This document shows, one piece after another, positions 30,761 through 60,336 of a stretch of DNA of 64,000 nucleotides. The DNA is from Candidatus Bathycorpusculum sp. (GTDB taxonomy: Archaea > Thermoproteota > Bathyarchaeia > Bathyarchaeales > Bathycorpusculaceae): the NCBI GenBank assembly GCA_009778385.1, contig WRJX01000105.1:1-64000 (forward strand), in the 5' to 3' direction. The notes below the pieces were generated by a model, which had not been told where the DNA came from, made no database searches, and saw only the letters and a list, made by a program, of their open reading frames with translations. Both the position numbers and the translations under genes were made by a program. Every line of letters begins with the position of its first letter. The first letter of the stretch is position 1.

Positions 30761-30866
30761 TTTTTTCTTCCTTACCTCTATGTCTGTGGCAAATACATAT
30801 CGCAAAATGTTTAAAGCTTTCGAAAAAACCTACTTGACCTTGCTGATTATTTTACATAAGAAATAG

Positions 30867-31859: not shown

Positions 31860-31996
31860 TTGATAATGTCCTCAAGGATGGGTTAATGCAGTTTTGGAAA
31901 ATTTAATCCTATCGTTAAATTCTAAAATTTGATATGATGTGGGTGAAGAGGTGTATGTGGTATTATGAGTAGGGGATGTTGGAATTGTTGAATGTG

Positions 31997-32617
31997 TTAG
32001 TGTATTGTAGAGTTTATGAGTTTTTGGGCAATTTCCATGTCTTTAAGTGTGTTGATGTTGAGAAGTACATCGGTTTCTTCGGTGATAATGGCGCTGGTTT
32101 CTATTTTGCCGTCTTCTTGGATTTTTGTTCCGTTGATGATGTTTATGCCTGATACTGCGTACCATGTGCCTTTGTATTCGTCAGTGCTGGATATTGATAA
32201 GCCTAAGTCGAGGCGTTTTTGTATTGGTACAAAAACGGCTAAGAAGTTTTTTTCACATTGTTCGAATTCATGGATTACTTTGTCGAGAAAATTGCCGGTT
32301 ATTGCGGGTACGTCAGATGGCATGGTTAAGATTGGACCTGTTAGGTTGGTTTTGCGGACGGCTTGTTTGAGATCATCATGGTAACCTTTGGCATCGGTGT
32401 GTATGGTTTTCCAACCCATGTTTTTGCAGTGTTGTTCTGTGTTGGGGGCGTTGTTGCTTGTGACTACGTAGAAGGTTGTGATGTTTTTGGCTTGACTTAT
32501 TGCCGCTGTAATGTAGTCGATCATGGGTTTACCGAGGAATGGGAGCATTGGTTTTTCAGTGGTTAGACCCATGCGTGTGCCTTTGCCGCCAGCCATGATT
32601 AGTGCAGTTATATCCAT
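31997..32617 (-). CDS. cobY: CobY, GTP:adenosylcobinamide-phosphate guanylyltransferase (copy 2)
   Basis: This 206-residue archaeal nucleotidyltransferase has LIMAGGKGTRMGLTTEKPMLPFLGKPMIDYI at its N-terminus (nucleotide-binding loop and EKP motif), the MPSDVPAITG metal-site strand and AVSGINIINGTK. It makes adenosylcobinamide-GDP for the CobS encoded by the gene it overlaps by 10 nt. GGTGA lies a few bases before the ATG at 32617. It aligns with copy 1 (12581-13207) over the whole length but differs at most positions, indicating two long-separated lineages. Its neighbours are canonical cobamide genes, so this is the better candidate for the housekeeping enzyme. Confidence 0.87.
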   Translation of the reverse strand: MDITALIMAGGKGTRMGLTTEKPMLPFLGKPMIDYITAAISQAKNITTFYVVTSNNAPNTEQHCKNMGWKTIHTDAKGYHDDLKQAVRKTNLTGPILTMPSDVPAITGNFLDKVIHEFEQCEKNFLAVFVPIQKRLDLGLSISSTDEYKGTWYAVSGINIINGTKIQEDGKIETSAIITEETDVLLNINTLKDMEIAQKLINSTIH

Positions 32618-33363
32618 GAAATCACCGCCAGTAGTGCAATGAGTGAGACTAGTCGTGTCAGCTCGTTTGTAGCGCCGAAGACATCACCTGTTACGCCGTT
32701 AAAGTTTCTATGGGCAATAAATGTCATTACTATGCTGGTTAGGATACTTGCAAGGATAACTATTGCACCTGCCCAATGTAGAAGGGGCAGTGCAATTGCT
32801 AATGAAATCAGCAGTCCAGCTATCAGGCGAGCAGTACCTTTAGGGCCATGCATAAATGAGAGAAAGGAGGTGTTCATTCCTTGATGTACTGCTTTTCCTG
32901 TCCAAGCCATGACTATCATTGAGAATTTTGCGGAGACTTCAACAACGATGATTGCAGGAATAATGAGGCTGGAGTTAATTTGGCCAATTGCTAACGCAGT
33001 AATTAGTATTGTTAAAATGCCAAGTGATAGACCGCCTGCGCCTGTGAGTTGATCATGCATGACTTCGACTTTGCGTTCAGGGGTGCCGTGAACCATGACG
33101 CCGTCACCAAAATCAAGCAACCCATCAGTATGATGAAGACCTGTAAGCCATAACAGTGCTGCGGTTACTAAGCCGCCAACGACGATGCCTGGCAGAAACT
33201 GGTAAGCTACCCAACCAAAAGTACCGGCTATTAGGCCGATGAAGGCGCCGACTAATGGGAAAGCGAACATATACCGTGCGCAGTCAGATAGCAAGTCATT
33301 GTCCATTTTAATAGGCAATACCGTAAGAAAAGAAAGAAGGTTTTTGAATTCTTTAACTACCAC
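32608..33363 (-). CDS. cobS: CobS, adenosylcobinamide-GDP ribazoletransferase (copy 2)
   Basis: This 251-residue polytopic membrane enzyme carries out the last condensation of cobamide synthesis. The family motif is intact: TGLHHTDGLLDFGDGVMVHG, then PERKVEVMHDQLTGAGGLSLG, with the acidic residues expected for metal binding, and the C-terminal GVTGDVFGATNELTRLV. The start is GTG at 33363, about 9 nt after a GTGA ribosome-binding site inside the end of cobT, whose stop lies 7 nt before. The downstream cobY overlaps by 10 nt. Comparison with copy 1 at 11.7 kb shows that copy 1 has lost some of these motif residues. Confidence 0.92.
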   Translation of the reverse strand: MVVKEFKNLLSFLTVLPIKMDNDLLSDCARYMFAFPLVGAFIGLIAGTFGWVAYQFLPGIVVGGLVTAALLWLTGLHHTDGLLDFGDGVMVHGTPERKVEVMHDQLTGAGGLSLGILTILITALAIGQINSSLIIPAIIVVEVSAKFSMIVMAWTGKAVHQGMNTSFLSFMHGPKGTARLIAGLLISLAIALPLLHWAGAIVILASILTSIVMTFIAHRNFNGVTGDVFGATNELTRLVSLIALLAVISWI

Positions 33364-33370
33364 GCATGGG

Positions 33371-34471
33371 TCACTTCATTGACATTAATACTGAATAATT
33401 ACGTTCTATAGCTTTAAGGAGCAAATCTTTGTTTACTGCGCCACCCATTTTTACCATTGCTGCAATTGAGGCTCCGCCAGCTCCAACGCCTTCTTTAACA
33501 AGTCCAGTCTCGTATATTTGCAAACCTGAGAATGCTGATTTGTTGAAGTTTAGGTCAGCTGCTAATATGGGGACTTCGCAGAACTGGCTTACTATACCTT
33601 TGATGTCTGATGATGCGTCGTTGGCTACCCAGCGGGTCGTGCCGATTGCAACGTTACAGAGAGCTTCGGGATTTAATGCGTTAATTAGGGCTAAGACGGC
33701 AGTCATTTGAGTTCCGCCGGCCATCAAAACAGGTGCCTGATTTGTTGCACCAATAACTAATCCAGCTAAGGCAGGCATCATTGGGTCACCTACACAGCTA
33801 ACTGCTTTTATTGGGTTGTTATTTAGGCTGCCGAATTTTTCTCCGGCCGCTTTCAGACCTGCCCGGACAACATCCGTTTTTAGGTTATGAGGATTTGAGG
33901 GTAAGGTGCTACTTACTTTTCCTTCTGCGTTTACGCCTAAAGCGGAAAGCAAACCAAGTGCAGTTGTGGTTCCACCAGGAATACTTTCGCCTATAACAAG
34001 ATAATCTGAAGTTTTCGCAAGTTGTTCACCAGCAACTTTGGCGCGTTCGATAACTTCTTCTACGTTATCAACTGAGTTACCGGTTCGGATGTCGCGTCCT
34101 GAGTTGCCGCCTAAATCGATGAAGGGAACTTGTGGCTTAACTTTGCAGCCTGCATTAACAATTACTACTGGAATGTCTGCGAGCTTTAACGCTGACATGG
34201 TTATTAATCCAGGGGTTGGGATGCCATCTGGTGTTATGGGAACGCCTTGGATAGATTTACATTTACCTAAGAGTAGTAATTCAGCGTCTGCGGGTGGAGT
34301 GAAATCGGTAAAATCAGGGTTTTGCCCCGCGGCGGATAACCCTGGAATTTTGCCTGTTTCGGTAGTAGCGATTGTTGCAATGAAAAGAGGCTTTTTACCT
34401 TCAATCTCTGACAGGAATGCTTCTGCTTTTGGTTTATTATAAGCGATTATAACATCAAGACTTGTTTTCAT
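33371..34471 (-). CDS. cobT: CobT-type nicotinate-nucleotide phosphoribosyltransferase (archaeal UPF0284)
   Basis: This 366-residue enzyme of the NaMN:base phosphoribosyltransferase family activates the lower-ligand base as its alpha-riboside phosphate. Visible features are ATIATTETGKIPGLSAAGQN, DLGGNSGRDIRTGN, the IGESIPGGTTTALGLL loop, CVGDPMMPALAGL, PVLMAGGTQMTAVLALI and the C-terminal VKEGVGAGGASIA, where the glutamate matches the catalytic-base region of CobT. It is the first clear cobamide gene of the minus-strand cluster cobT-cobS-cobY-cbiB, with spacings of 7 nt and a 10-nt overlap. The base actually used cannot be deduced from the sequence. Its product is the substrate for CobS and, after dephosphorylation, CobZ. 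Confidence 0.88.
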   Translation of the reverse strand: MKTSLDVIIAYNKPKAEAFLSEIEGKKPLFIATIATTETGKIPGLSAAGQNPDFTDFTPPADAELLLLGKCKSIQGVPITPDGIPTPGLITMSALKLADIPVVIVNAGCKVKPQVPFIDLGGNSGRDIRTGNSVDNVEEVIERAKVAGEQLAKTSDYLVIGESIPGGTTTALGLLSALGVNAEGKVSSTLPSNPHNLKTDVVRAGLKAAGEKFGSLNNNPIKAVSCVGDPMMPALAGLVIGATNQAPVLMAGGTQMTAVLALINALNPEALCNVAIGTTRWVANDASSDIKGIVSQFCEVPILAADLNFNKSAFSGLQIYETGLVKEGVGAGGASIAAMVKMGGAVNKDLLLKAIERNYSVLMSMK

Positions 34472-34483
34472 GAATTGAACCCT

Positions 34484-35152
34484 TCACTTAAGTTTAACTG
34501 CGAAGTCTTTGACCTCTAGGTAGCCAAAGCCACTGTCAAGTTTATGTTTCTGGGTTTCTAGAATTTCAATCTTTTTCTTGAAGTACGGCCCATCGGTTAC
34601 TACCGTATGGTATTCACCACCTTCACCACATGGATCAATGTTACCCAGTTTAAGAATTTCATCATAAAACTGCTTATCAAGCACACGTCCAAGCCAGTCC
34701 ACATCAAGTTTACTAAGATTAGTACGGACAACTGTTGCTTTAAAACCTGCATTTAGGTAGTCAATGTAGATTTGTTTTGTATCACCCATCCATAAGGGTC
34801 TAATTGGTTTTAATCCCACTTCACGGCAAACACGGTTCAACCAACCTTCCTCATGACTATCAATCTCACAAATGTCACCTGTAACTAAACCTTCAACACC
34901 CTTAGCTTTTAGTTCAACAAGAACAGTTTTAAAGTCAAGTTCGTAAGTTTCATTGCTAGTTTGCTTTTTAATCAAGGGAACACCTAATGCGTCTGCTTGG
35001 GCATCTAAAATATCTGAACGTATTAAATGAAATTTTGATTTCTCTTCATTCATCAGAGTTAAAATGTTGACGACTCCGTGGCCTTGCTGTTTTGCCAAAT
35101 ATAAAGCAAAAGCACTATCTTTACCGCCACTCCATGAAGCTGCAACTTGCAT
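34484..35152 (-). CDS. dph6: Dph6-like ATP-pyrophosphatase (diphthine-ammonia ligase family)
   Basis: This 222-residue PP-loop ATP-pyrophosphatase begins with the signature AASWSGGKDSAFALYLA and continues with GVEGLVTGDICEIDSHEEGWLNRVC, then RPLWMGDTKQIY and the C-terminal DPCGEGGEYHTVVTDGP, the hallmark of the diphthine-ammonia ligase family. Dph6 amidates diphthine on translation elongation factor 2 using ATP and ammonia. It lies 12 nt before cobT on the same strand, so it is probably co-transcribed with the cobamide genes. That position leaves room for a different, cobamide-related amidation, but the sequence itself favours Dph6. Confidence 0.8.
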   Translation of the reverse strand: MQVAASWSGGKDSAFALYLAKQQGHGVVNILTLMNEEKSKFHLIRSDILDAQADALGVPLIKKQTSNETYELDFKTVLVELKAKGVEGLVTGDICEIDSHEEGWLNRVCREVGLKPIRPLWMGDTKQIYIDYLNAGFKATVVRTNLSKLDVDWLGRVLDKQFYDEILKLGNIDPCGEGGEYHTVVTDGPYFKKKIEILETQKHKLDSGFGYLEVKDFAVKLK

Positions 35153-40598: not shown

Positions 40599-43412
40599 CT
40601 ACTTGTGGTAGGTTTTGGATGTGGGAGTAGAGGAAACAGATTGTTTCTGGTTGGTTTCGTCTTTATGGAGTTTGAACACAAACAATACGCATATGATTTC
40701 TACCGCAAGGATGACAGCGTTCGCAATAGTCCACTTATCCACTATACCCATTGGGAGGCTCGTATTCTCGGTTAGCAGAAACACAACGATACCTATGATA
40801 CCCAAGGTAATGGCTGCGATTAACCACATAGTTCTATGTTGTGCATACTTTTTGTTGTGGTACTGCTTGTTGTGTTTTGCTCCATACTGGTTCTGTTCAT
40901 CCGTCTCAGCTTTTGTCTTCCTTAGCAACAATGCATGGATGGTTATTATAGCCGCCAGTATAACACCAGCTATACTAAGTATTAGATTCACAACCGCCCA
41001 CTCTGATACCTTTGACGTTTCATCATCAGTATCGCCACTATTTGATGGCGAGAACTCTCTCATACTATCATCTGATGTTGTGTCATCTGTTGAATTATCT
41101 GAAGCTGCGTCATCTGTTGAATTATCTGAAGCTGCGTCATCTGTTGAATTATCTGAAGCTGCGTCATCTGTTGAATTTGTCAGTCTGTATTGTGCTGTAA
41201 CTGTAAGATCTGCTGTCACATTAGTAAAGGTGCGATCCCAACCTGTAAAGATATAATCAGCTCTTGTTGGATTCGCCGGAGCAGTAGCATCACCACCATA
41301 AGACACCGACTCAGACTTCAAAAGCACCCCATCCCAATCCACAAACCGTACTGTAAATAGGGTACGCTGTTCCTGTTCCCATTGTGCTACATAGTCAGCA
41401 TTACCTGTCACTGTCTCACTGGGTATAGGTAGCCAGCCTGTAAACTTCCAACCGGCATCACCTGTTACTGTAGGTGTATTAGGAGTTGGATCACCATAGG
41501 AAAGATCGCTAAAGTTTATTGCAGTAAACGTGCCATGTGTACCAGGTTGATATGTTACTGTGTACAGATTAGTATCAACTTGTATCCACACTGCATACAG
41601 TACTGTGTCATCCATGATGTTAAAAGTTGAACCAACTGTATAAGCTACCTTGTCCGCATTGGAACTCAATGCCCACCCAAGGAAGTCATAGTTATCTTTA
41701 CTCAGGTCACCCTGACCTAGTACTATCACTTGATCTCCACTATCATATGGACTGTGTCCATCTATAGGCGCTGTACCGCGAGTGTGACCATTACCATCAT
41801 AGATTAACGCGTAACATGTTACCTCATCTTCAACCCCACTCCAATATGCAGTCAACTCAACGTTACCCGTTGTACCTACAGGGATGCCATAAAGAGTTAC
41901 TGGATCAACTACACTTGGCTGACTACCGTCAAAGTATGTTACCGTCCAACCTAAAAAGTCATAACCCGGCCTAGATGGATCAGCTATACTAATTGGGAAA
42001 GCATCTTCCACAGTGTAAGAAGTTGGATTATCCTTAGCATTATCGCCGCCCTTTAGCACATATGTGATACTATATGGAATAACTGTCCACTGTGCATAAA
42101 GAGTAACATCTTCATCTGACATAGTAAATGTATCTCCAGGCACATACGGAGCGCCGGCACCGTCTTTTTGCGTGTTCCAGTTTACAAAGTCATAGCCCGC
42201 CCTAACCATATTGCCTTTAGTGAGTACAATTACAGAGCCACCGCTTAGATAGCAATTTGCGTCAACTGGTACAGTACCATCAGTGTTACCGTTACCGTTA
42301 TAGCTCACAGCAAACGTCTTAGCCTCGCCCTCAGTTATCAAAATGTAGCAATTATTACTATTATTGGATAAATCTGTTACAACATTATTACCATCCCAGT
42401 TAAAGGCAACACTTTTACTAGTTGTGGTATATTGATAAGTTTTGCCTCCTACAATAGGAGCATGACCACCTCCAGAGGTAACATGTACTTCATAAGTAAG
42501 AACTTCAACATCATCACCAAAACCGCTGTTGGCACCAGGTTTTATCCAAAATTGATAAGTACTTTGGCCCTTAGTCCACAAACAACCCCATGTATAATCG
42601 TTACAGTCATCAGGAGATTTATTCATTCCAACCCACTGGTAATCTTTTCCGTTAATAGAAGCGCTACTACCCTGTGGTAATATGAAGCTAAAACCTATGG
42701 GATCGATAATTTTTATATATTTAAATCCATTACCAGCATTCCAATTGAATTCAGGTACTAAAAAAGCCTCTTCTTCAATGTCCTGCTCCACCCAGTAATA
42801 ACCGTTACCAGCAGCAGGTGTAAAAGTGGCTGTAACACCATCATCAGCATAATAAAATGTATCCAGTTCCCATCCGGAGTTTAGTTGTAAAGTAAAGCTG
42901 ACGTGTTCATTGCCATTTATTTGATTTTCAGATATTTCCCAGATTATGTCGTTACCAACTTGTGAAAGCCCTGATGGTAATGGTGACTCTACACTAAATT
43001 GAGAATCTAAGGTATAGGTAAAAATAACTGTAGAACCCTCTGCCAATGGAGATAAGCCGTCATACTCACATAGCTTAATGAGTAAAGTAATGATGAAGGC
43101 ATCATTGTCGTCGTCATATGCGACGTTTTTGTCTGTCCATACCTGTCCAGGTTGTAATACAGGAGCACTAGTTTGAGATTCAACATAAGTTTTTTTAAAC
43201 TGGTCTGGGATTGGTATACTACCCACATCAGTGCCGCTTGTATGTACTGCTAATGGTGCTAAACTAAGAAATAGTATTAACGTGATTGTGAGCACCATTT
43301 TTAAGCTGAACATTCGTTTAAATGTCTTGAGGGAAAACAGGTTTTTATTATAAGTTCGTGCCTGAGTTAACCGGTTTACTTTTGTTGTTGTATTAATGTT
43401 CCAGTTATTCAT
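40599..43412 (-). CDS. Large InlB-repeat (Flg_new) surface adhesin-like protein
   Basis: This 937-residue exported protein has a signal peptide or anchor FSLKMVLTITLILFLSLAPLAV (about residues 34-55), followed by an N-terminal beta-rich domain of about 320 residues. Next come at least four InlB-type B repeats (e.g. VRAGYDFVNWNTQKDGAGAPYVPG with YAQWTV, PGYDFLGWTV, DNYDFLGWAL, ADYIFTGWDRTF). A low-complexity TDDAASDNS linker repeated about three times leads to three C-terminal membrane helices (LILSIAGVILAAIITIHALLL, MWLIAAITLGIIGIVVFLL, ANAVILAVEIICVLFVF). Such proteins bind surfaces or other cells. The repeat type is commonest in bacteria and gut archaea, suggesting transfer, but this is inference. 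The strong GGAGGG ribosome-binding site lies in a hairpin just before the ATG. Confidence 0.85.
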   Translation of the reverse strand: MNNWNINTTTKVNRLTQARTYNKNLFSLKTFKRMFSLKMVLTITLILFLSLAPLAVHTSGTDVGSIPIPDQFKKTYVESQTSAPVLQPGQVWTDKNVAYDDDNDAFIITLLIKLCEYDGLSPLAEGSTVIFTYTLDSQFSVESPLPSGLSQVGNDIIWEISENQINGNEHVSFTLQLNSGWELDTFYYADDGVTATFTPAAGNGYYWVEQDIEEEAFLVPEFNWNAGNGFKYIKIIDPIGFSFILPQGSSASINGKDYQWVGMNKSPDDCNDYTWGCLWTKGQSTYQFWIKPGANSGFGDDVEVLTYEVHVTSGGGHAPIVGGKTYQYTTTSKSVAFNWDGNNVVTDLSNNSNNCYILITEGEAKTFAVSYNGNGNTDGTVPVDANCYLSGGSVIVLTKGNMVRAGYDFVNWNTQKDGAGAPYVPGDTFTMSDEDVTLYAQWTVIPYSITYVLKGGDNAKDNPTSYTVEDAFPISIADPSRPGYDFLGWTVTYFDGSQPSVVDPVTLYGIPVGTTGNVELTAYWSGVEDEVTCYALIYDGNGHTRGTAPIDGHSPYDSGDQVIVLGQGDLSKDNYDFLGWALSSNADKVAYTVGSTFNIMDDTVLYAVWIQVDTNLYTVTYQPGTHGTFTAINFSDLSYGDPTPNTPTVTGDAGWKFTGWLPIPSETVTGNADYVAQWEQEQRTLFTVRFVDWDGVLLKSESVSYGGDATAPANPTRADYIFTGWDRTFTNVTADLTVTAQYRLTNSTDDAASDNSTDDAASDNSTDDAASDNSTDDTTSDDSMREFSPSNSGDTDDETSKVSEWAVVNLILSIAGVILAAIITIHALLLRKTKAETDEQNQYGAKHNKQYHNKKYAQHRTMWLIAAITLGIIGIVVFLLTENTSLPMGIVDKWTIANAVILAVEIICVLFVFKLHKDETNQKQSVSSTPTSKTYHK
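41080..41177 (-). repeat. 27-bp tandem repeat (about 3.6 copies) coding a TDDAASDNS linker
   Basis: Units at 41080-41106, 41107-41133, 41134-41160 and a partial one to 41177 are nearly identical (GCGTCATCTGTTGAATTATC plus 7 nt). The 27-bp period keeps the frame, so copy number can change by slippage without breaking the adhesin. It is inside a coding region, with no spacers, and is not CRISPR. Confidence 0.9.
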
Positions 43413-48727: not shown

Positions 48728-49957
48728 ATGGAACAAAAAGTTTGTGGAATAGATGTCCATCGCGATCTCCTCGTTGCAACCATACTAGACCAAGACAACC
48801 ATAAACAAACCCAAACCTTCCAAAACAACACCACAAACATGCAACAACTAAAACAATGGCTAAAAACAAACAACTGCATAGACCTGGCAATGGAATCAAC
48901 CGGATCCTACTGGACAACCCTATACATAACCTTAGAAGACGCAAGCCTAAAACCCATACTAGCTAATGCGCATCAAGTAAAAGCAATACCCGGACGCAAA
49001 ACCGACCAAAGAGACTCAGAATGGCTCGCCTACCTACACAGAAGCAACCTCATACGACCTAGTTACGTCCCAACCAAACCCATACGCGAACTACGCGAAC
49101 TAGCACGCACAAGAGTAAGATACGTAGAAAGCCGAACACAATACAAAAATCGCTGTCAAAAAATACTTAGCAAAAACAACATGCGTTTAAGCTCTGTTTT
49201 AAGTGACATATTTGGTAAATCAGACAAAGAACTTCTAAAGGGCCTAATGAAGGGTAAAACTGTAGAAGGCATTCTAAAAACTACTGAAAGTAAACGTCTA
49301 AAAAAGCGAAAACAGGAGATAATTGATGTTGCTAGGGGTTCTCTTAGTGAGATTGACATGTTTCTTCTTAAAGAGATGGAGCAAACTATTGATGCTTTAA
49401 CGGTTCAGATTCATAATATAGAGCGGTGTATGGATGAGTTAGTTGATAAAGCTGCGTTGGAAATTATTTGTTCAGTTCCGGGTGTTGGTAGGTTGTCTGG
49501 TGCTACGGTTTTAGCTGAACTTGGAGATGTCACGCGGTTTGGTAATGGGCGGCAGGTGGCTTCTTGGCGTGGTTTTGCTCCTTTTGTTTCTCAGTCGGCT
49601 GGGGTGACAAGGATTGGTGGGATTACTAAGCGTGGTTCGCGTTGGTTGCGTCGTGTTATGGTTGAGGTGGCTCATGTGGCTGTTCGGATGCTTGGTCGAT
49701 TTAAGGATATGTTTTGGCGTATTGCTGTTAAGAAGTGTAAGAAGGTTGCGTATGTTGCTGTTGCTCGCAAGCTGCTAACTGTTATTTGGTATTTGCTGGT
49801 TAATGGTGAGGTGTATGTTGAGGAGGGTTTTTCTAAGAAGTCTACTGTTTTGGCGCGGTCAAAGTCTTATGATGGTAATAGTGGTGGTGGTTTGTCTTTG
49901 GATGATATTGTGGGTGTTTTGGGTCGTGTGATGAAGGTGGTTTCTGATGGTGGTTAG
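48728..49957 (+). CDS. IS110-family transposase
   Basis: This 409-residue DEDD transposase has an N-terminal RuvC-like domain with GIDVHRDLLVATIL, LAMESTGSYW and GRKTDQRDSEWLAYL carrying the acidic residues. A helical middle region is followed by the C-terminal Tnp_20 domain with ICSVPGVGRLSGATVLAELGDV, GRQVASWRGFAPFVSQS and TKRGSRWLRRVMVEVA, which holds the catalytic serine region. No frameshift or stop interrupts it. The 5' half is strongly A+C-rich on the plus strand and the 3' half strongly G+T-rich, an odd switch near 49150-49350. IS110 transposases act with a bridge RNA, for which the structured leader is a candidate. Confidence 0.93.
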   Translation: MEQKVCGIDVHRDLLVATILDQDNHKQTQTFQNNTTNMQQLKQWLKTNNCIDLAMESTGSYWTTLYITLEDASLKPILANAHQVKAIPGRKTDQRDSEWLAYLHRSNLIRPSYVPTKPIRELRELARTRVRYVESRTQYKNRCQKILSKNNMRLSSVLSDIFGKSDKELLKGLMKGKTVEGILKTTESKRLKKRKQEIIDVARGSLSEIDMFLLKEMEQTIDALTVQIHNIERCMDELVDKAALEIICSVPGVGRLSGATVLAELGDVTRFGNGRQVASWRGFAPFVSQSAGVTRIGGITKRGSRWLRRVMVEVAHVAVRMLGRFKDMFWRIAVKKCKKVAYVAVARKLLTVIWYLLVNGEVYVEEGFSKKSTVLARSKSYDGNSGGGLSLDDIVGVLGRVMKVVSDGG

Positions 49958-50243: not shown

Positions 50244-51527
50244 TTATCTTGATGCCATAATAGTGCTTGCTAGGGGTATGCGCGATGGACAAACGTATGA
50301 GCAGGTTCCGCAGCCTATGCAATCTTTGTTCCAAAGTTTTTCTGCTTTATCCATGTCTGGCTTCATGATTGCGTTGTAAATCAGAATCGGATGGAGTTTA
50401 ACTGGACAGGCGCTGATACATTTTGCACAGTGGATACATGCGGTTTGCTTTTGTTCTTTCTTGTTCTTGCTTTCGGAGAATGCAATGATACTTGAACTTC
50501 GTTTGGTTATTGGTGCTTCAGTTGTTGGAATTGCATGTCCCATCATGACTCCGCCAACGACAACTTGTCTAACATCCTTCATGTCGATGTTGTTTTGGTT
50601 AAAGACGTCACTTATGGGGGTACCAATTTTTACCAACAAGTTTTTGGGTTGCACAACATCACCGTTGAACGCTACTACTCTACTTATGAGCGGTTCGCCC
50701 TCAAACACGGCATTCGCAATCGCATTGATTGTAGCAACATTTTGGACAATACAGCCCATTTCGTACGAACGCTTTGTTGGTGGTGTTTCATAACCAAAGA
50801 GAGCTTTCTGTAAAACACTTGCATCACCTTGTTGATATTTGAAGTGTCCTGCAATTACTGTTGTATCTGGCTCGCTGCCAAAAACTTCTTGTAGCTTTGG
50901 TACTGCTTCTGCTTTAGATACTTTGGTTGCAACTGTTACTTTGGGGTTTCCCAAAATCTTTTTGATTACTTTTACGCCTCGTAGCAAATTTGCAGTTTTT
51001 TCGATGAGTAAACGCTCGTCAGCTGTGTCATAGGGTTCGCCTTCTGTGGCATTTACAACTAAGTTTTTGATTGGAAATTCTGCGGGTGGTGATAGTTTGA
51101 TGTGGGTTGGGAAGCCTGCGCCTCCAAGACCGATAATGCCTGCTTCATGGATTATGTTGAGCAAAGCATCTGGTTTGGTTTTTTCTAGTTCTGATTCAGA
51201 GATTGGTAAGAGAGTTTTGGCTTTGGTTTTTTTACCGTCGTTTTCAATATAGATGGCATCCATGAATGTTTCTGAGCAGTGGCTGTAGATGTTGCCTATT
51301 TTGACAACTTTGCCTGAGATTGGGCTGTGTATCGGTGAGCTTATGCGTTCTTTTGAGTCAGCAATTTTTTGGCCCATTTCTACTAAGTCACCAACAGCGA
51401 CAAGGGGAGAAAGTGGCTTTCCCGAGTGCTGATTCAGGATGACTATGGCAGTTTTAGGGTCGGGGAAGATTTCAATAGGGGTTATACGTGCTTGATCTTT
51501 GACTTCTTTTATATGTTCATATGGCAT
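50244..51527 (-). CDS. rnfC: RnfC-like electron-transport subunit
   Basis: An RnfC-family protein of about 427 residues, the peripheral subunit that passes electrons between a soluble carrier and the Rnf membrane complex. An N-terminal barrel-sandwich segment (SGKPLSPLVAVGDLVEMGQ, then SSPIHSPISGKVVKIG) is followed by the flavin-binding Rossmann-like region (EAGIIGLGGAGFPTHIKL, NATEGEPYDTADERLL). GCIVQNVATINAIANAV and VKIGTPISDVF are conserved. Two 4Fe-4S motifs end the protein: CIHCAKCISACP and CIGCGTCSYVCP. The usual QGGEKQLI-like NADH-site segment reads QGDASVLQKAL. The ATG at 51527 has GGGAG 9 nt upstream; an ATG at 51536 is too close to that site. It is coupled to rnfD. Confidence 0.88.
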   Translation of the reverse strand: MPYEHIKEVKDQARITPIEIFPDPKTAIVILNQHSGKPLSPLVAVGDLVEMGQKIADSKERISSPIHSPISGKVVKIGNIYSHCSETFMDAIYIENDGKKTKAKTLLPISESELEKTKPDALLNIIHEAGIIGLGGAGFPTHIKLSPPAEFPIKNLVVNATEGEPYDTADERLLIEKTANLLRGVKVIKKILGNPKVTVATKVSKAEAVPKLQEVFGSEPDTTVIAGHFKYQQGDASVLQKALFGYETPPTKRSYEMGCIVQNVATINAIANAVFEGEPLISRVVAFNGDVVQPKNLLVKIGTPISDVFNQNNIDMKDVRQVVVGGVMMGHAIPTTEAPITKRSSSIIAFSESKNKKEQKQTACIHCAKCISACPVKLHPILIYNAIMKPDMDKAEKLWNKDCIGCGTCSYVCPSRIPLASTIMASR

Positions 51528-51532
51528 TTTGT

Positions 51533-52693
51533 TCATCTCCCAAATGGCTTATGGATTCCTATACGATCTAAGAGCGGCACAGTAAGGTTCATTATTACCA
51601 GTGCAAGCAGTGCGCCTCCGAAGAAGTTCATGTATGTTTGAATAATCACTGTTAGTACACCTAAACCGATGCCGAAGATTATCTGTCCAGTTCTCGAATA
51701 CGGAGTTGTAGCCGGATCAGTAGCCATGAAGAATCCTAAGAAAATTGAGCTTCCGATAAACAATTCGAATAGCAACCGTGTAATTGGATCTCCACCGTAG
51801 ATACCAGTCATAATAAGGGACATTGCAATGGCGCTTCCAAAGTATGTTGCAGTAATTCTCCATTTGAAGTAGTCGCGTAAAAAGAAAATCAATATTGCAC
51901 CGATAATTATTACAGCAATACTAGACGCTCCACCAGGCCAACCATGGAATTTTGTTAGAAGCATTATAGAGTTTAGACTACCAGGTTCTGCTCCAGGTAG
52001 ACCATAACAACCTTGAAGATAACCAGAAAACGTCAACTGTGTACCCATATAATCAGTCACCAGATTGCTGGCAAGCTTAGGTACTTCTAGTCCACCTTCT
52101 GCAAATGGCGCCCAGTGTTCTTTTATAAGGAATGTTGAAGTTATGAACGGTAACAGTACTAAGAGTTTTGCAGTAGCAGCAGGATTAAAAAGTTTACGAC
52201 CTTTTAGACCTTGAAGTTTCTTGAAACCAACAAGACCAATAAATGAAATCAAAGCCACATAGATAAAGCATCCAGGAGCACTTAACATTGAAATCGGCAT
52301 CATTTCACCCATTGCCATCGTAGGAACACCAATCGAGTATGAAAGCGCAACAATCAAACCGAAAACAGCAGCAGACATTGTGTTTATTTCACTATCAGCA
52401 GCTGCTTTTCCGATTATGAAGTCACTTACTACAGCCACTCCAACAGCAATCAAAGCATTCAACAGAAGAATCGCACCGAGAGGCATTGCAAAAAGTCCAG
52501 TTAAACCAAGATAATCGAGATCCGGATGGGGAGTCATAGCTGGCCACCATAGAATAGCAGTAATTATAGTAATAGCCAGTAGTGCAGCGAAAGTATAAGC
52601 CATCACTCGAGTTTTTGACATTGTACCAGTAATTTGTGGGGGCGGTGAAACAACCAAATCTTTGGGTTTTTCAACAGAGGGGTTATTAGTCAT
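51533..52693 (-). CDS. rnfD: RnfD-like membrane subunit
   Basis: A 386-residue membrane protein of the RnfD/NqrB family with about ten helices. Supporting blocks are the GRKLFNPAATAKLL segment, FFMATDPATTPYSRTGQIIFGIGLGVLTVII, and the C-terminal ALVIMNLTVPLLDRIG. RnfD normally carries covalent FMN on a threonine in an SGAT-type motif. At the equivalent loop (GAEPGSLNSIMLLTKFHG) I see no such threonine motif, so flavinylation is doubtful. The start has GAGGT about 8 nt upstream. Its stop lies just before the rnfC start. No RnfG, A, E or B gene is in the window; with rnfC it makes a two-gene unit. Confidence 0.85.
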   Translation of the reverse strand: MTNNPSVEKPKDLVVSPPPQITGTMSKTRVMAYTFAALLAITIITAILWWPAMTPHPDLDYLGLTGLFAMPLGAILLLNALIAVGVAVVSDFIIGKAAADSEINTMSAAVFGLIVALSYSIGVPTMAMGEMMPISMLSAPGCFIYVALISFIGLVGFKKLQGLKGRKLFNPAATAKLLVLLPFITSTFLIKEHWAPFAEGGLEVPKLASNLVTDYMGTQLTFSGYLQGCYGLPGAEPGSLNSIMLLTKFHGWPGGASSIAVIIIGAILIFFLRDYFKWRITATYFGSAIAMSLIMTGIYGGDPITRLLFELFIGSSIFLGFFMATDPATTPYSRTGQIIFGIGLGVLTVIIQTYMNFFGGALLALVIMNLTVPLLDRIGIHKPFGR

Positions 52694-53017: not shown

Positions 53018-54115
53018 TTGGCTCAAAATAGACCACCCTTGTACATGGTAACTTGGCGATGTACTAGGCGATGTGTAGGCAACTGTGTTTACTGTAGTTA
53101 TGTACCTAAATTTGCCAAAGATGATGAAGTAAGCACTGAAACCGGCAAAAAAATTGTCGATGAAATGCACGACTTTGGCGCTAAATGGTTTGGTATTAGT
53201 GGAGGAGAACCATTAGTACGCGAAGACATTTTTGAAATTATTGAGCATGCCAAAAAAACGTATGGTATGGAAGTAAGTTTGATCACAAGCGGATTTGCTT
53301 TTGATCAAAAACGTTTAGACCTTCTAACAAAATATGAGGTTCATACTGCCGTAAGTATCGATGGTGATAAGGCTACAAATGATGTTGTTAGAGGACCAGG
53401 TAGCTATGATAAGGCAACATATGCCATGAAGAAACTTGGGGAAAACGGCTTACTTGACTGTATTGTCACGACCATGAACAAGTACAATATTAATGTACTT
53501 GAGCACACGTGCCAGTTAGCAGCTGAATATGGCGGCAAAATGGTTGTTTATCATAATCTTGTTCCAGTTGGAAGAGCAAGTGATAACATGCTAGATTTAG
53601 CTCCAACAGCAGACCAGTATGAAGTAGCGCTTAACCAACTTTACGATTATGAACTAAAATACAACCATAACAAGAAAAATAACAACTTCCGGGTCAATGT
53701 CTATTCACCATTCTATGCAAGAATTGTAAAACAGCGAAATCCAGCAAGATTCTGGGACTGGTTTACCAACGAATTCTTAGGTAAATGCACAATTGGCGGT
53801 GACTACATTGGTGTAACTGAAAATGGTGATTATAGACCGTGTGGTTTCCATGAAGGTTACCGGCTAGCCAATGTTAAAGACAAGAGTCTAAAAACAGCTT
53901 GGGATGAACTTCAAACTAACCCATTACACCTTAAATTAAGAGATAAAAGCCAAATTAAGGGTAGATGTGGGATTTGTGAGTACAGAGAAATCTGCGGTGG
54001 ATGCAGAACACGTGCTGAATTCTACACGGGTGACTTGTTTGAGTCTGACCCAGCATGCGCATACATACCTCAAGTAATGCGTGAAAACCCCGAACTACTA
54101 CAAAAGAAACAATAA
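53018..54115 (+). CDS. Radical SAM/SPASM enzyme (paralogue B)
   Basis: This 365-residue enzyme has the SAM cluster motif CVGNCVYC (C19/C23/C26, with an extra C15), ISGGEPLVRED, TAVSIDGDKATND and the SPASM-type tail GRCGICEYREICGGCRTRAEFYTGD for auxiliary clusters. It is paralogous to 25646-26749 along its whole length and shares an identical C-terminus, PQVMRENPELLQKKQ. The substrate is unknown; the tail resembles tetrapyrrole- and peptide-modifying enzymes. The start is a TTG at 53018, with GTGAT about 8 nt upstream and a TATA box about 38 nt before it. It is monocistronic, divergent from rnfD. Confidence 0.82.
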   Translation: MAQNRPPLYMVTWRCTRRCVGNCVYCSYVPKFAKDDEVSTETGKKIVDEMHDFGAKWFGISGGEPLVREDIFEIIEHAKKTYGMEVSLITSGFAFDQKRLDLLTKYEVHTAVSIDGDKATNDVVRGPGSYDKATYAMKKLGENGLLDCIVTTMNKYNINVLEHTCQLAAEYGGKMVVYHNLVPVGRASDNMLDLAPTADQYEVALNQLYDYELKYNHNKKNNNFRVNVYSPFYARIVKQRNPARFWDWFTNEFLGKCTIGGDYIGVTENGDYRPCGFHEGYRLANVKDKSLKTAWDELQTNPLHLKLRDKSQIKGRCGICEYREICGGCRTRAEFYTGDLFESDPACAYIPQVMRENPELLQKKQ

Positions 54116-54162: not shown

Positions 54163-56454
54163 TTATTGGTTTACTTTAAAGATGGCATAGCGGTCGTTTG
54201 AGTAAACCAGTTCCAGAATACTACTTCTGACGAGTTTAGTGTCTAGCTGGAACTTATCGTAAACAAGAAAGCTGACATTATTTTCTTTAATGAAGTCAAA
54301 GTAATCTCGGCTGGTAATAGTGAAATACCATGCAGGTTGTGTAGTAAACATATCTTTGATTTGAGTTGGCTGCACACTTTGGTGGTAGCTGTCTTCGGAG
54401 AAAGTTAGGGTTTGATAAGAGACGGATACGTTGTTGTGGGAGCTAATTTGTTCAAACTCGTAACTGAAACGTATTGCATCTATTTGCATACTGGATAAGG
54501 CGCCTATGTTTCCCCAGTCAGGCAGACTATTGAATTTAAGGGCGTAATAGGCCTGATTCTGCGTATCGTGCAATGCTATGTAGTCATCGGTTAGGCTATT
54601 TTTGGAAAAATTGGTTACAGCCCATTGTGTTTCGTATGTGTCTGTTGGATTAGCCCATGGGTTTTCCCAGTTCAATATACCAGGTAAGTATACCTTGTCA
54701 AAGTTGAAGGACAAGTAAAAGAAAATGGACAGGTATAATGTGACATTGCTCATGAGATTGTTTGTTGGAGTTATGACCCAATCGACTTGCGTTGGATAAG
54801 AAGAATTTTGAACCAATTGAGTTTGAGTCACTGAAACATCATCATTAGTATAAACAATTGTTAAAGTTTGCGCTGTTTGACTACCGTTCAATGTGTAGTT
54901 ACGTATCATCTGACTTAAGTCCACCTTCTTGTACACGCCATCAATATTGTAAGAAATGTAGTCACCTGCTGTTGAACAATAAGTTTCAAGCTGCCAAACA
55001 TTGTTAACAGAAACATAATTTTCACTTGAAATATCCCCCTTAGCCTCATAAGCACGAATAAGAGTTAAGGGAGTTTCTATTTCATAAGACAAGTCCAAAA
55101 TTGACTCAGAAATAACATTACGCTCAACTATTGGATCAGTTGCCGCAATCACAGTTTTTTCACAAAAAGCACCAAACCAAAAACCTGGCTTAGAAGTGAC
55201 AACTACAGTTGCAGATTCAGGATAGTTAGTTTTAAGCCATTGACCAGCCTGCAACGACATCAAATCAGAAGTTGAATAAAACGAGACTGATTCACTAATT
55301 CGTGTGCCCAACACGTTCCCACGCATCACAAGCGCAAAACAGGATAGAGCAATTAGGCCTATAACTATAGCTTTAACGTAAACTCGTTTTATATTTGCCC
55401 TGTGTGCTTTGTAGTAACTTAAAGATTTGTCGACAACAAAGAACAGCAGCACAGCAGCAAAAATCGTCATAAATGGCATCACATAGTAAACAAACCAATT
55501 AAATGGCAGGTATAAACCAAAAACAAAAGATTCTGCTAAAATCAAAGGAATAAGAAAACTAAGAATCAAAGTAAGGTTGCTTACATGCTTCTTTTCAAGC
55601 CACAACTTATAGGCAGCCACAAACAATCCAGCAACACCCAAAATTAATACAAAACCAAAATTTGACCAAAACGCAGACAGAGACGTACCTGGAATCTGAT
55701 AAGCCATGGCTTTCTGCGCAAGAAATACATGCTCAATCAAACCACCCAAATAGGGTAGCATCGCCCTAACATAATAAAGAAAGAAAGCAATCCCACCACC
55801 AACGATTATGAAAATCAAGGCTTTGATGCCTTTACCTTTAGACTTGATTATCAGAAACAGCATAACTGGCGTCAAAATCAAGACAGACACGAACATGGTA
55901 AGTTGATGAGACAACACCAACGCGAAAGCAGATACGCCAGCAACTATCATGTAACTCTTATGCTCAATTGAAAGAGGCAAATACAAAAACAAAAGCAACA
56001 TAAACGCTATACCCAAAACACTTGTGTAACCAGCCCACATGTTAATTTCAAACATTGGAAAACACAGAAACAACAAAGATGCTGCAACCACACCTGTTTT
56101 CTTGTTAAAAAACCGCGCACTAATAAGGTACACACTAAAAACCATCAACCAATCAGCTAATACAGCAGACACCTTAACAAAAAGAATTAACTGATCAATG
56201 TTTGTGGCACCTGTAAAGGTGATTAAAAAGGCCAGCAAGATTTGGTAAAGGGGAGGCGTCCAGCCTAAGTTAGCTAAAGAGATTTGTCCAGTGTTTAGAA
56301 ATTCTTGCGCACGGGCCAAGTGTACTGAGCCGTCATTTCCAAGAATAAGTCCATTCGCTGAAATGGTACTATAGAAGACTATTAAGACGACTATGGAAAA
56401 TCCTGTCAAAAACGTAATATCTAACAGTTTATCTTTTGAAAGATTTAGTATCAA
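54163..56454 (-). CDS. Large GT-C-like polytopic membrane protein (copy 1)
   Basis: A 763-residue protein with about 11-12 hydrophobic helices in the first 450 residues and an extracytoplasmic C-terminal domain. The first external loop, ANGLILGNDGSVHLARAQEFLNTG, has an acidic residue followed by histidine, as in GT-C glycosyltransferases that use polyprenyl-linked donors. The C-terminal part is rich in Asn-X-Ser/Thr and beta-strand sequence, typical of extracellular domains. I cannot place it in a known GT family; an oligosaccharide-transferring enzyme or a related membrane scaffold are both possible. The start is a TTG at 56454, with a GGGGG ribosome-binding site. It lies 33 nt downstream of its paralogue on the same strand. 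Confidence 0.65.
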   Translation of the reverse strand: MILNLSKDKLLDITFLTGFSIVVLIVFYSTISANGLILGNDGSVHLARAQEFLNTGQISLANLGWTPPLYQILLAFLITFTGATNIDQLILFVKVSAVLADWLMVFSVYLISARFFNKKTGVVAASLLFLCFPMFEINMWAGYTSVLGIAFMLLLFLYLPLSIEHKSYMIVAGVSAFALVLSHQLTMFVSVLILTPVMLFLIIKSKGKGIKALIFIIVGGGIAFFLYYVRAMLPYLGGLIEHVFLAQKAMAYQIPGTSLSAFWSNFGFVLILGVAGLFVAAYKLWLEKKHVSNLTLILSFLIPLILAESFVFGLYLPFNWFVYYVMPFMTIFAAVLLFFVVDKSLSYYKAHRANIKRVYVKAIVIGLIALSCFALVMRGNVLGTRISESVSFYSTSDLMSLQAGQWLKTNYPESATVVVTSKPGFWFGAFCEKTVIAATDPIVERNVISESILDLSYEIETPLTLIRAYEAKGDISSENYVSVNNVWQLETYCSTAGDYISYNIDGVYKKVDLSQMIRNYTLNGSQTAQTLTIVYTNDDVSVTQTQLVQNSSYPTQVDWVITPTNNLMSNVTLYLSIFFYLSFNFDKVYLPGILNWENPWANPTDTYETQWAVTNFSKNSLTDDYIALHDTQNQAYYALKFNSLPDWGNIGALSSMQIDAIRFSYEFEQISSHNNVSVSYQTLTFSEDSYHQSVQPTQIKDMFTTQPAWYFTITSRDYFDFIKENNVSFLVYDKFQLDTKLVRSSILELVYSNDRYAIFKVNQ

Positions 56455-56487
56455 ACGTAAGACTTCCCCCTTTTTAGGTCGTAACAG

Positions 56488-58860
56488 TTATTTCACTTCA
56501 AATATGGCAACCTCATTGTTAATAAACACAAGGCTAAACAGTGGATCATTTGCAAATTTGAGTTTCATTTCAGCTTCTGAAGCTACTTCATAGTAGCGAG
56601 GCACCACTATGTAGTTTATGTTGTTATTTTTTAGTTCAGCTTGATAATTGAATGGCACTTGAAGAGGCAAATTATCTCGATTTTCTGGTTCCAAATTAAG
56701 TTCGATTTGTTTGTTAAAGAAGGCATTAAAGATCTCATCATCAGCATTGTATAGTGCGGGATCATTTGTAATTGAGTAAGTTGTTGTTGACATCTGTATT
56801 TTTGCTTGTTTTTTACCTTCTAAATTATAGTCAAGGAAAACATCAGTAGAGCCTGATCGGGTATGTGGTTTGGAGCTAATGTCAGGAAGGTTTTGGTCAA
56901 ATATTATTTGTCCGAAAGCTTTTACACCCTCTGCTAAGAATCCAATAGTGTTAGGTCTTTCAGAGCCAACTGGTAAGGCGCTAGCTTCTAAAGTGGATTG
57001 TAGCCATGTTAGAGAAACATTTTCTGCAGTGGCTTCAATGATGGTTGTCATGTTAACAAATTTAGAGCCCTGATATACTGTTGTTAACTGGGTGCAAGTG
57101 AGATATTCATTGCCTTTAGTGATTGAGACAGTGATGTGTTGAGTGCCATTTTCCATGTACATATTTTTAACAGGTAGCTTGTCTAACGATATTGACTGTG
57201 GAGCACCGTTTACTTCATACTTGATTTTTGTTTGGTTACTGTTAAAGTTGAAGAAAGAATAGGGAAAATAAGTCCAGTTTAACTGGGTGAGAATCTGAGG
57301 ATTGTGTCTTGCAAAGTATCCACCGTCTTCTCTTACTTGAATGCCAAGAATTTCATCAGACAATTTAAATGAACTTCCAAATAGGTAGTCTGTGTCAAGC
57401 ATGTTATATGCCACTTGAGCAATTGGAACTTCACGAGAGAGTGAAAGAAACTGTGGGTCAACAGCGCTCCATGTTGGTCTCTGTGCAAACCCTGCAAACC
57501 ACCACCCATAGTATGCTGTTGTAATAAACGTAGCATTAGCAGGCGTGTTAGCTTTAGCCCATTCCATAGCCTGATAAAGCGGGTCATTCATTGATTGATA
57601 AAACGTTTGAGTGTTTAAGCCCTCACTTGGAGTTATAAAAACGGGTATAAAGAAGAAACAAACCAGCAAAAGTCCAACAAGAAAGCCGGTATACAGGTTA
57701 GATTTTGTGAGGTTTGTACTAATCTTGTTTGAAAGGTTAGTTAACCGTTTGTGGGTTACCTGTTCTGTTTCTTTAGCTGTATTATTTAATTGGCTTGTTA
57801 ATGTGCGGTATGTACCTATTACGCGAGCAAAGAAGCCTGAGCCATAATCAATAAAGAGACCTATTAGGAGTATAAGGGGAAGTATTACAAAATACAGAAA
57901 CCGATTGTAATCAGTGTATAGTCCAACAAGATAGGCCTGTGTAAATATAGCAGGAATAAGTATCCATAGTGCCAACAGAATTGTTGGAATTGTAAAGTAA
58001 CGTTTGTGATATTTTTTGGATAAGAGGAAGTAAAGACCTGCAATTACAAAAAGGGGCAGAACGATTTCTAAGGGTAATATTCGTGTAGAAATGGTTGCCT
58101 GATTGATTTCTGCAGTTGTCAGGTTAGTTAGGTATGTGGGAATGATTTGTATAAGGTAGGGCGAAACGATTAAGGCTCCTAAAATCACAGGCAGCAGCCA
58201 ACTTAACGCTTCAAGTCGTGTGGTTCCAATTTTTTGGCCAAAAATTAAGCTAAGGAGAATTACGGAAAATAGTATGCTTACAAATACGGCACTGCTTAGT
58301 GAATGAGCTATAAATATTGAGCCAACCAGTATTGAGGTTGAAATATAGAAGGGAATCTTTGTGAAACGATTTTTTTGAATATAAAGGTAAAATGTTATTG
58401 GAATCAGTAAGAGAGCGATGACATTTGGGTAGCCTCCCCAAAGTAGCATTTCAATATCAAACCGTGAAATCGCCATAAAGAAAGCAACGACAATAGCGGC
58501 AGATTCCTTCCAGACGGCTCGTGTTATAAGGTAGGAAGCAAGTACAATTACGGATGAAAACAGCGATGATACCAAGGCATGTATTAAATATTCAGGCATA
58601 CTTGTAAGCGTCATCATTTGAGTAACAAAAATGTGGTACCCCGGAAAAGTAATGGATAATCCGCCACCCATGTGGTAATAATTGTAGAGGAAATCAACGT
58701 TACCACCTTGATTGATTATTGAATAAATGACACTGTTGTGTAAGCCTATGTCTGCACCTGGGGGATAGGTTCCATGGGTCATCAATAGGAAACGGTACAG
58801 AAAAGCAAAAATAAATATTGCAAAAAGCAATATTAAATGCTTGTTTGTGTCTTTAACCAT
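56488..58860 (-). CDS. Large GT-C-like polytopic membrane protein (copy 2)
   Basis: This 790-residue protein has the same plan as its downstream neighbour: N-terminal helix HLILLFAIFIFAFLYRFLLM, an external loop THGTYPPGADIGLHNSVIYSII with acidic and His residues, about 11 more helices, and a C-terminal extracytoplasmic domain with many Asn-X-Ser/Thr sites (VNMTTIIEAT, ENVSLTW). It appears distantly paralogous to copy 1. GT-C membrane glycosyltransferases that take sugar from polyprenyl phosphate are the nearest known type. The DPM1-like enzymes at 7.2 and 18 kb could supply such donors. No specific family is claimed. The start is an ATG at 58860, divergent from the corrinoid protein gene. 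Confidence 0.65.
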   Translation of the reverse strand: MVKDTNKHLILLFAIFIFAFLYRFLLMTHGTYPPGADIGLHNSVIYSIINQGGNVDFLYNYYHMGGGLSITFPGYHIFVTQMMTLTSMPEYLIHALVSSLFSSVIVLASYLITRAVWKESAAIVVAFFMAISRFDIEMLLWGGYPNVIALLLIPITFYLYIQKNRFTKIPFYISTSILVGSIFIAHSLSSAVFVSILFSVILLSLIFGQKIGTTRLEALSWLLPVILGALIVSPYLIQIIPTYLTNLTTAEINQATISTRILPLEIVLPLFVIAGLYFLLSKKYHKRYFTIPTILLALWILIPAIFTQAYLVGLYTDYNRFLYFVILPLILLIGLFIDYGSGFFARVIGTYRTLTSQLNNTAKETEQVTHKRLTNLSNKISTNLTKSNLYTGFLVGLLLVCFFFIPVFITPSEGLNTQTFYQSMNDPLYQAMEWAKANTPANATFITTAYYGWWFAGFAQRPTWSAVDPQFLSLSREVPIAQVAYNMLDTDYLFGSSFKLSDEILGIQVREDGGYFARHNPQILTQLNWTYFPYSFFNFNSNQTKIKYEVNGAPQSISLDKLPVKNMYMENGTQHITVSITKGNEYLTCTQLTTVYQGSKFVNMTTIIEATAENVSLTWLQSTLEASALPVGSERPNTIGFLAEGVKAFGQIIFDQNLPDISSKPHTRSGSTDVFLDYNLEGKKQAKIQMSTTTYSITNDPALYNADDEIFNAFFNKQIELNLEPENRDNLPLQVPFNYQAELKNNNINYIVVPRYYEVASEAEMKLKFANDPLFSLVFINNEVAIFEVK

Positions 58861-58980: not shown

Positions 58981-59406
58981 ATGTCCTGGCTTAAATCTAT
59001 GATGGAAAAAGAACCCCCAGAACCAGAAAATCCACTCGGTACAGTAGTAATCGGAAACATTGAACCAGACATGCATGATACAGCAAAAGAAGCAGTCCGC
59101 CGATCATTAAAACGTGCAGGTTTCAAAACAATTGATGTTGGAAAAAGCGTTGCACCACAAGTTTTTGTTGACAAAGCAAAAGAAAACAATGCAGACCTTA
59201 TTGCTCTTTCAATTAACACAGTACCAGCAAAAAACAATCTAGTAAAACTTGATGAAGCATTGAAAGCAGCAGGTCTCAAAGACAAAGTCGGTATAATCAT
59301 GGGCGGCGCAGCAGTCAAGAAAGAAGATGCAGATGCATTTGGTGCATTCTTTGGTAAAAACAAAGAAGAAGCCCCAGAGTTAGCCAAGAAAGCGTTGAAA
59401 AAATAA
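58981..59406 (+). CDS. Minimal corrinoid (B12-binding) methyl-carrier protein
   Basis: This 141-residue protein consists almost entirely of a B12-binding Rossmann domain. Residues 30-36 are DMHDTAK, with His 32 as the expected lower axial ligand, followed by KRAGFKTIDVGKSV, DLIALSINTV and GIIMGGAAV. Compared with MtbC/MttC-type carriers it lacks the N-terminal helical cap domain, and the DXHXXG motif has A35 where glycine is usual. Carriers of this kind hold the methyl group on cobalt while a partner passes it on. The partner here is encoded by mtrH, 18 nt downstream to its best ATG. A TATA box and AGGTG precede it. The exact methyl donor is unknown. Confidence 0.8.
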   Translation: MSWLKSMMEKEPPEPENPLGTVVIGNIEPDMHDTAKEAVRRSLKRAGFKTIDVGKSVAPQVFVDKAKENNADLIALSINTVPAKNNLVKLDEALKAAGLKDKVGIIMGGAAVKKEDADAFGAFFGKNKEEAPELAKKALKK

Positions 59407-59424
59407 AATCTGACTGTGAGCAAC

Positions 59425-60336
59425 ATGCGAAGATTCGATACCCCCCAAAAAATCTATGAAATTGGAAAAGTAAAAGTCGGCGGCCAACCAGGTGAGCTAC
59501 CTACGTTCATCATTGGCTCTATCTTTTGGCTTGGCCAAAAAATGGTGTCTGATGCAAACAAAGGTATTTTTGACGCTAAAGCTGCAGAAGACATCATTAA
59601 CAGATGCCAAACACAAAGCGACATCTCAGGTGTACCTTTTGCCCTTGACATTGTCGGCACAACAGAGGCCGCCTTTGAGAAATATTTTGACTTCGTTTCC
59701 AAACACACTGATGTACCACTCATGCTTGACGCTATGAGTCCAAGGACTCGTATGGCAGCAGCAAACATTGCAAAGAGAATGGGTCTAGAAGAAAGATGCT
59801 TCTACAACTCAGTTTACAAGGGAGTAACTGATGCTGAATTAGCAAACTTGAAAGAAAGTGGCATCAAAATGTCAATCGTCCTTGCAGACGATCCACATGA
59901 CACATCTCTTGCAGGTAGAATGAATGTCATCGAGGAAGCCTTAGCGCTTGCAGAGAAAGGTGGAATTACAAAACCACTCATTGATACATCTATGCCATCT
60001 TTTCAACCAGACATGGGAAGCTCAGTTGTTGCATTTCCAATGATGAAAGAGAAGTATGGTCACCCTGTAGGCACAGGTAGCGGCAACGTTGTCACAACCA
60101 TGGGTTGGGTAAAAGCTAACATCGCAAAAGAATACCGAAAAGGCACTGTTACAGCAACTAACGCAATCTTGCAAACCATGGGCGCTAACTGGTTAATGTT
60201 TGGCCCAGCTGAACAAGCTGAATGGGTCTTCCCGGCAATCGCAGTTGTTGATACATACATTGCATCTGCAGCCGCAGACTTTGGCACACAACCAGTAGAT
60301 ATCGAGAACCATCCAATATTCAAGATGTTCTCCTAA
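59425..60336 (+). CDS. mtrH: MtrH-like methyltetrahydromethanopterin:corrinoid methyltransferase
   Basis: This protein of about 303 residues belongs to the MtrH family, the TIM-barrel subunit moving methyl between tetrahydromethanopterin and corrinoid cobalt. The start RRFDTPQKIYEIGKVKVGGQPGELPTFIIGSIF is the family's opening. DANKGIFDAKAAEDIINRC, APLMLDAMSP-like (VPLMLDAMSPRTR), DTSLAGRMNVIEEAL and GHPVGTGSGNVVTTMGW follow in order. ATG at 59425 is preferred; GTG at 59416 would add three residues. It is the only Mtr subunit in view and directly follows the corrinoid protein, so it may work with that soluble carrier rather than in the Mtr membrane complex. A role in methyl uptake or one-carbon transfer is inferred. 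Confidence 0.88.
   Translation: MRRFDTPQKIYEIGKVKVGGQPGELPTFIIGSIFWLGQKMVSDANKGIFDAKAAEDIINRCQTQSDISGVPFALDIVGTTEAAFEKYFDFVSKHTDVPLMLDAMSPRTRMAAANIAKRMGLEERCFYNSVYKGVTDAELANLKESGIKMSIVLADDPHDTSLAGRMNVIEEALALAEKGGITKPLIDTSMPSFQPDMGSSVVAFPMMKEKYGHPVGTGSGNVVTTMGWVKANIAKEYRKGTVTATNAILQTMGANWLMFGPAEQAEWVFPAIAVVDTYIASAAADFGTQPVDIENHPIFKMFS

Follow-up and report, generated by a model that had tools for sequence, protein, structure and literature searches.

A minimal RnfC-RnfD pair in Bathyarchaeia, predicted to act as an uncoupled membrane electron conduit

The stretch of Candidatus Bathycorpusculum DNA analysed here (64,000 nt, hereafter the window) encodes RnfC and an RnfD-family protein as a coupled pair, and the minimal RnfD system to which they belong is most likely, judging from sequence, a membrane-embedded electron conduit that is not coupled to ion pumping. 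In its fuller form, as an ion-uncoupled conduit specific to Bathyarchaeia and made from the output half of Rnf, we place this proposal slightly on the likely side of even. It builds on the gene content, the architectures of the relatives, the retained ligands, the lost flavinylation threonine and the absence of the pump subunits. How electrons flow in Bathyarchaeia, which are abundant anaerobes, is little understood, and surveys of the class have found Rnf incomplete or missing (PMC9534799, PMC7886697): Bathyarchaeota from Polar Fox Lagoon possess RnfC, RnfD and BLAST matches to RnfB, the other subunits being absent (PMC9534799), while Rnf is absent from Bathy-6, where FrhB homologues occur without a hydrogenase (PMC7886697). 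The suggestion of an earlier note that the pair is an undescribed form thus needs qualification, since an incomplete set containing RnfC and RnfD is already known in Bathyarchaeota (PMC9534799); what is new, within the open-access literature searched, is the pair as such, the fusions and the analysis of the sites, of none of which a description was found.

An RnfC-RnfD pair without the pump subunits

RnfC (50244-51536, reverse strand; 430 aa) consists of a NuoF-like FMN domain and a C-terminal 2x[4Fe-4S] ferredoxin domain. It is full-length and, at 401 bits where TIGR01945 requires 246, a full member of the rnfC family; C. tetanomorphum RnfC is the nearest solved chain (E 5e-78). The FMN motif GLGGAGFPT, which starts at residue 136, and the eight cluster cysteines (367, 370, 373, 377, 406, 409, 412 and 416) are kept in all 20 RnfC sequences compared, and from these motifs an FMN site and two [4Fe-4S] clusters are predicted, as in Rnf. 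A second Complex1_51K protein of the same genome is NuoF/HydB-like and lies on a separate contig.

The adjoining gene (51533-52693, reverse strand; 386 aa) codes for an RnfD-family protein of 10 transmembrane helices, identified by PF03116 and by alignment to solved chains, the hydropathy profile being in agreement with this topology. It scores well above the Pfam cut-off (PF03116, 130 bits against 27.7) but reaches only 88 bits against TIGR01946 (cut-off 207), and is therefore a divergent member of the family. The two reading frames share 4 nt, an overlap found again in 16 of the 17 loci with RnfC. Purifying selection acts on the two genes, with dN/dS ratios of about 0.18–0.23 for RnfD and 0.06–0.10 for RnfC, and they are thus real genes rather than remnants. 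Immediately downstream of RnfC the window carries an IS110-family transposase (48728-49957), in place of which the sister genomes L038, L040, L045 and L048 have a small ORF, c13.

The genome to which the window belongs (2.18 Mb in 105 contigs, 97.7% complete) contains a single RnfD. Searches of it with PF02508 (RnfA/E), PF04205 (RnfG) and ApbE returned nothing, while the controls matched in E. coli and Methanosarcina, and no protein of the genome exceeded the RnfB cut-off. Across 257 Bathyarchaeia genomes, RnfD-family genes occur in 56, so that the idea of an oddity confined to the window was rejected; RnfA/E above the cut-off and RnfG/FMN_bind are each found in none of the 257. For RnfB (TIGR01944), no genome of the class has a protein above the cut-off, and the ferredoxin-like matches present in all 257 were dropped as candidates because every one falls below it, as expected of ferredoxin-like proteins. 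ApbE yielded one marginal match in the 257 genomes, in a genome without RnfD. The description of the pair as standing without RnfA, B, E and G, exact in its coordinates, is thereby upheld, and the broader idea of a reduced, non-flavinylated membrane device gains support from the class as a whole and not from one genome alone. Since the absence repeats throughout the class, it characterises the lineage and does not stem from a hole in a single assembly. The division of the genome over 105 contigs might still be taken to conceal an ordinary Rnf complex; to this we give next to no credence, as the genome is 97.7% complete and the same absence recurs in the 257 genomes, including the RnfD carriers G050, G052 and G131, each assembled into a single contig. 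A hidden complete Rnf was rejected on the searches of the genome and the class.

Set beside the Rnf complex (RnfABCDGE of A. woodii, C. tetanomorphum, A. vinelandii and M. acetivorans), the pair has in common the FMN and 2x[4Fe-4S] motifs of RnfC, the RnfD fold and the riboflavin ligands, but is without RnfA and RnfE and hence their [2Fe-2S] pump core, without RnfG, ApbE and an RnfB above the cut-off, and without the FMN threonine of RnfD. With these parts missing, the known ion-pumping core is absent. Whether this amounts to uncoupling depends on where pumping resides: it has been assigned to RnfA/E and not to RnfD (PMC11889175), but other structural work places ion movement in RnfD (PMC9588780), so the uncoupled state is not certain. 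The minimal system makes this disputed role of RnfD itself testable.

Retained riboflavin ligands and a remodelled outer loop in RnfD

In RnfD of A. woodii, N123 and D249 serve as riboflavin ligands, and the substitutions N123A and D249A abolish activity (PMC11889175). In the alignment these residues correspond to N170 (52184-52186, reverse strand) and D326 (51716-51718, reverse strand) of the window protein, both putative riboflavin ligands; the former position is asparagine in 53 of 53 distinct rows covering the site, and the latter is aspartate in 56 of 56. By homology and hydropathy, N170, D326 and the RnfD C terminus would all lie on the cytosolic side.

The opposite face of the protein is altered. 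No conserved [STQ]xAT flavinylation motif is present in the outer loop (about residues 192-249) of the window RnfD or of its relatives, where the alignment contains only chance-like TLAT in a few sequences and an isolated TGAT in L112, none of them conserved. The loss of the flavinylation threonine, which the earlier note had read from the window alone, thus survives alignment across relatives. The extracytosolic loop that replaces the covalent-FMN loop (H193-H250; 51944-52117, reverse strand) has near-invariant residues of its own, H193, F222, K248 and H250, with W252 just beyond, and G255 aligns with E185 of C. tetanomorphum RnfD, a residue near FMN-D (PMC9588780). H193, K248, H250 and W252 are new to this outside region, where the covalent FMN would otherwise sit. 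A bolder reading, which we think rather unlikely, is that RnfD devices of a hitherto undescribed class have exchanged the covalent FMN on the outside for a histidine-associated cofactor or acceptor (at H193/H250, K248 and W252), that their NAD(P)H-type RnfC and F420-type FrhB heads are interchangeable, and that some species possess a one-polypeptide F420H2:membrane oxidoreductase.

The fold of RnfD is related to that of urea and ammonium transporters, and the covalent FMN and the pump partners have been lost, so that RnfD could be imagined to serve mainly as a transporter or binding protein devoid of a redox role. We regard this as very improbable, given that the riboflavin ligands are kept and that RnfD is repeatedly coupled physically to FeS, FMN and F420 redox domains.

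Electrons might instead pass from riboflavin to a lipid-soluble quinone in a surface pocket of RnfD, making the pair an Nqr-like quinone reductase. The homologue NqrB does hand riboflavin electrons to ubiquinone in such a pocket (PMC12174285), and the riboflavin ligands are conserved here; in Bathyarchaeia, however, published surveys recovered the ubiquinone pathway only in part (PMC9534799) and detected no genes for making methanophenazine (PMC7886697), and we hold a quinone route to be quite improbable. In Na+-NQR, where riboflavin and quinone form the route, NqrB is the counterpart of RnfD, but counterparts of NqrC, NqrD and NqrE were not found here, and RnfC, unlike NqrA, keeps its redox motifs.

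Exchangeable heads and the predicted electron path

A scan of genome contigs with the RnfD alignment yielded 47 loci, from Bathyarchaeota, termite-gut Ca. Bathycorpusculum, Bathyarchaeum and bins labelled unresolved Nitrososphaerota or Crenarchaeota, the last of which nest among Bathycorpusculum and Bathyarchaeota rows in the RnfD tree. The rows nearest to the window RnfD are of the termite-gut Bathycorpusculum type. One pattern-based contig scan, which used just two peptide patterns, found no relatives beyond Bathyarchaeia, and a wider spread is possible.

Three architectures can be distinguished. Type 1, that of the window, has RnfD and a separate RnfC (17 of 48 loci), and most relatives are without RnfC. 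In type 2 (25 of 48 loci), RnfD carries a C-terminal 2x[4Fe-4S] domain and the locus has no RnfC gene; the best named ferredoxin-family match of this domain is the C-terminal region of RnfC itself (TIGR01945, at 353-433 of 435). Type 3, found in five genomes (L055, L057, L069, L070 and L071), joins RnfD, 2x[4Fe-4S] and an FrhB/FpoF domain in one protein, with PF04422 and PF04432 both above the cut-off in L057 and L069; the window's own proteins are not of this type. In the RnfD tree, type 1 forms a single clade (100/100) sister to type 2, from which it follows that the separate RnfC was probably gained while the fused ferredoxin was lost, a direction of change that depends on a root consisting of one distant E. 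coli row. The predicted structure of the type-3 fusion was poor (pLDDT 57) and its fold was set aside. The FrhB C-terminal domain is absent from 7 of the 38 RnfD genomes checked, and the genome of the window has one stand-alone FrhB-type protein.

These natural fusions of RnfD with FeS, and in type 3 with FrhB/FpoF as well, suggest the order head, FeS, RnfD. Across the architectures the cytosolic head varies while the wire of FeS and riboflavin would stay constant, which suggests that RnfD and the two clusters have been kept together in evolution as one unit to which different hydride heads can be attached. The FrhB N and C domains are likewise joined to 2x[4Fe-4S] in FpoF/FrhB F420-dependent enzymes (Fpo, Frh, Fsr, Fdh), a likeness confined to the type-3 relatives, in which, unlike in those enzymes, the domain is fused to RnfD; the window carries RnfC instead.

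The closest precedent is found in bacteria, in an 'Nqr/Rnf-like' system of two genes (PMC8238504, PMC10979944), for which a one-way flow to outside acceptors has been proposed. It too is minimal, with a cytosolic reductase head and an RnfD/NqrB-like subunit that lacks the flavinylation threonine (PMC10979944). The bacterial head, however, is a fused NqrF-type PF00175 domain, whereas that of Bathyarchaeia is RnfC or a ferredoxin(-FrhB), and a Pfam scan detected no PF00175 NAD-binding domain in RnfD, RnfC or three fused relatives; moreover, the bacterial system possesses an FMN-bind (RnfG-like) subunit, while no FMN-bind protein was found in the 257 genomes of the bathyarchaeial class.

In solved Rnf the clusters of RnfC bridge to the riboflavin of RnfD, the path running from RnfD riboflavin through the RnfC clusters to FMN and NAD (PMC12174285). 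Without RnfA/E/G only this RnfC-RnfD half remains, and the fusions point to an exchangeable head; for these reasons we favour the uncoupled conduit. Which cofactors are bound, which way the electrons flow, and what donates and accepts them are inferred. The cytosolic head would accept hydride, by RnfC with FMN in the window and, in certain relatives, by an FrhB domain of the F420 type, and pass electrons to the two [4Fe-4S] clusters and on to riboflavin, bound in RnfD close to its cytosolic face, from which they may reach a membrane or extracytosolic acceptor through the remodelled outer half of RnfD, devoid of covalent FMN. NAD(P)H would be the default donor for the window RnfC, and F420H2 that for type 3. 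The conduit is supported by the absence of pump subunits and ApbE from the RnfD genomes and by the conservation of riboflavin ligands, FMN motif and cluster cysteines in genes under purifying selection. Against it, most relatives (type 2) have no hydride head in the RnfD gene, some RnfD genomes, as noted, lack the FrhB C-terminal domain altogether, and transmembrane transfer may fail because, without FMN-D, there is no known cofactor between riboflavin and the outside surface. If the proposal is correct, an RnfD wire with swappable heads would separate the Rnf electron path from the pump and provide Bathyarchaeia with a membrane step tied to F420 or NAD(P)H.

The use of a different soluble carrier had been put forward in the earlier note on the grounds that the usual EK of the NADH-site segment of RnfC reads AS (residues 239-240). 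The change is real with respect to the clostridial and Acetobacterium proteins, which have EK, but the pair is AK in E. coli and A. vinelandii, so that the one unusual feature is the missing lysine, replaced by S240 in the window and by A or G in relatives. As proof of another carrier the substitution is weak and was rejected, and the carrier idea finds its indirect support in the RnfD-FrhB/FpoF fusions of relatives rather than in the window RnfC.

Gene neighbourhood

Divergent from RnfD, across a gap of 324 bp, lies a radical SAM/SPASM gene (53018-54115, forward strand) whose product is AhbD/NirJ-like but below the cut-offs; of the 36 loci with sufficient upstream sequence, 26 have such a divergent gene no more than 1.5 kb away. 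The neighbourhood of RnfD in relatives further includes a HutW/HemN-like radical SAM protein, a PQQ/BamB-type beta-propeller protein, a second radical SAM/SPASM protein, a B12-binding HpnJ/BchE-like radical SAM protein (below cut-offs) and c2, a small membrane protein that adjoins RnfC/RnfD in many of them. In the window these families are found some 20–30 kb from the pair, between 20645 and 30805: the HutW/HemN-like protein at 20645-21955, the propeller at 23225-25507, the second SPASM protein at 25646-26749 and the B12-binding protein at 29375-30805 (all reverse strand), and c2 at 28564-29235 (forward strand). This company could mean that the pair is a membrane-bound electron supply or sink dedicated to the radical-SAM enzymes encoded nearby, which might work on tetrapyrroles or other cofactors, and that electrons hardly cross the membrane, if at all. 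We consider this possible but doubtful: every radical SAM match falls below the curated cut-offs, some RnfD loci have no radical SAM genes, the reduction of such enzymes needs no membrane protein, and a pump for lowering the potential is absent.

The c2 family occurs in 53 of 56 RnfD genomes as against 11 of 201 others (Fisher p 4e-40, a value that ignores the kinship of the genomes). The window c2 has no Pfam match; its AF2 model (pLDDT 81) finds ECF S-components as all of its top six Foldseek matches, RibU and PanT among the best, but weakly (E 0.025–0.5, TM about 0.35–0.53), and a role as an ECF S-component is kept as a hint only. Several extra c2 paralogues per genome are found away from RnfD in G072, G073, G143 and others.

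Beside the B12-binding radical SAM gene are likely cobalamin-synthesis genes (30867-35152), CobD/CobS/CobT-like by eye from the sequence, and farther along is a 937-aa repetitive protein (40599-43412) that is probably surface-exposed. A corrinoid protein and MtrH-family pair (58981-60336) is in the RnfD neighbourhood of 16 of 48 loci; between it and the divergent radical SAM gene lie two large membrane proteins of 763 and 790 aa (54163-58860), which are conserved in 16 loci.
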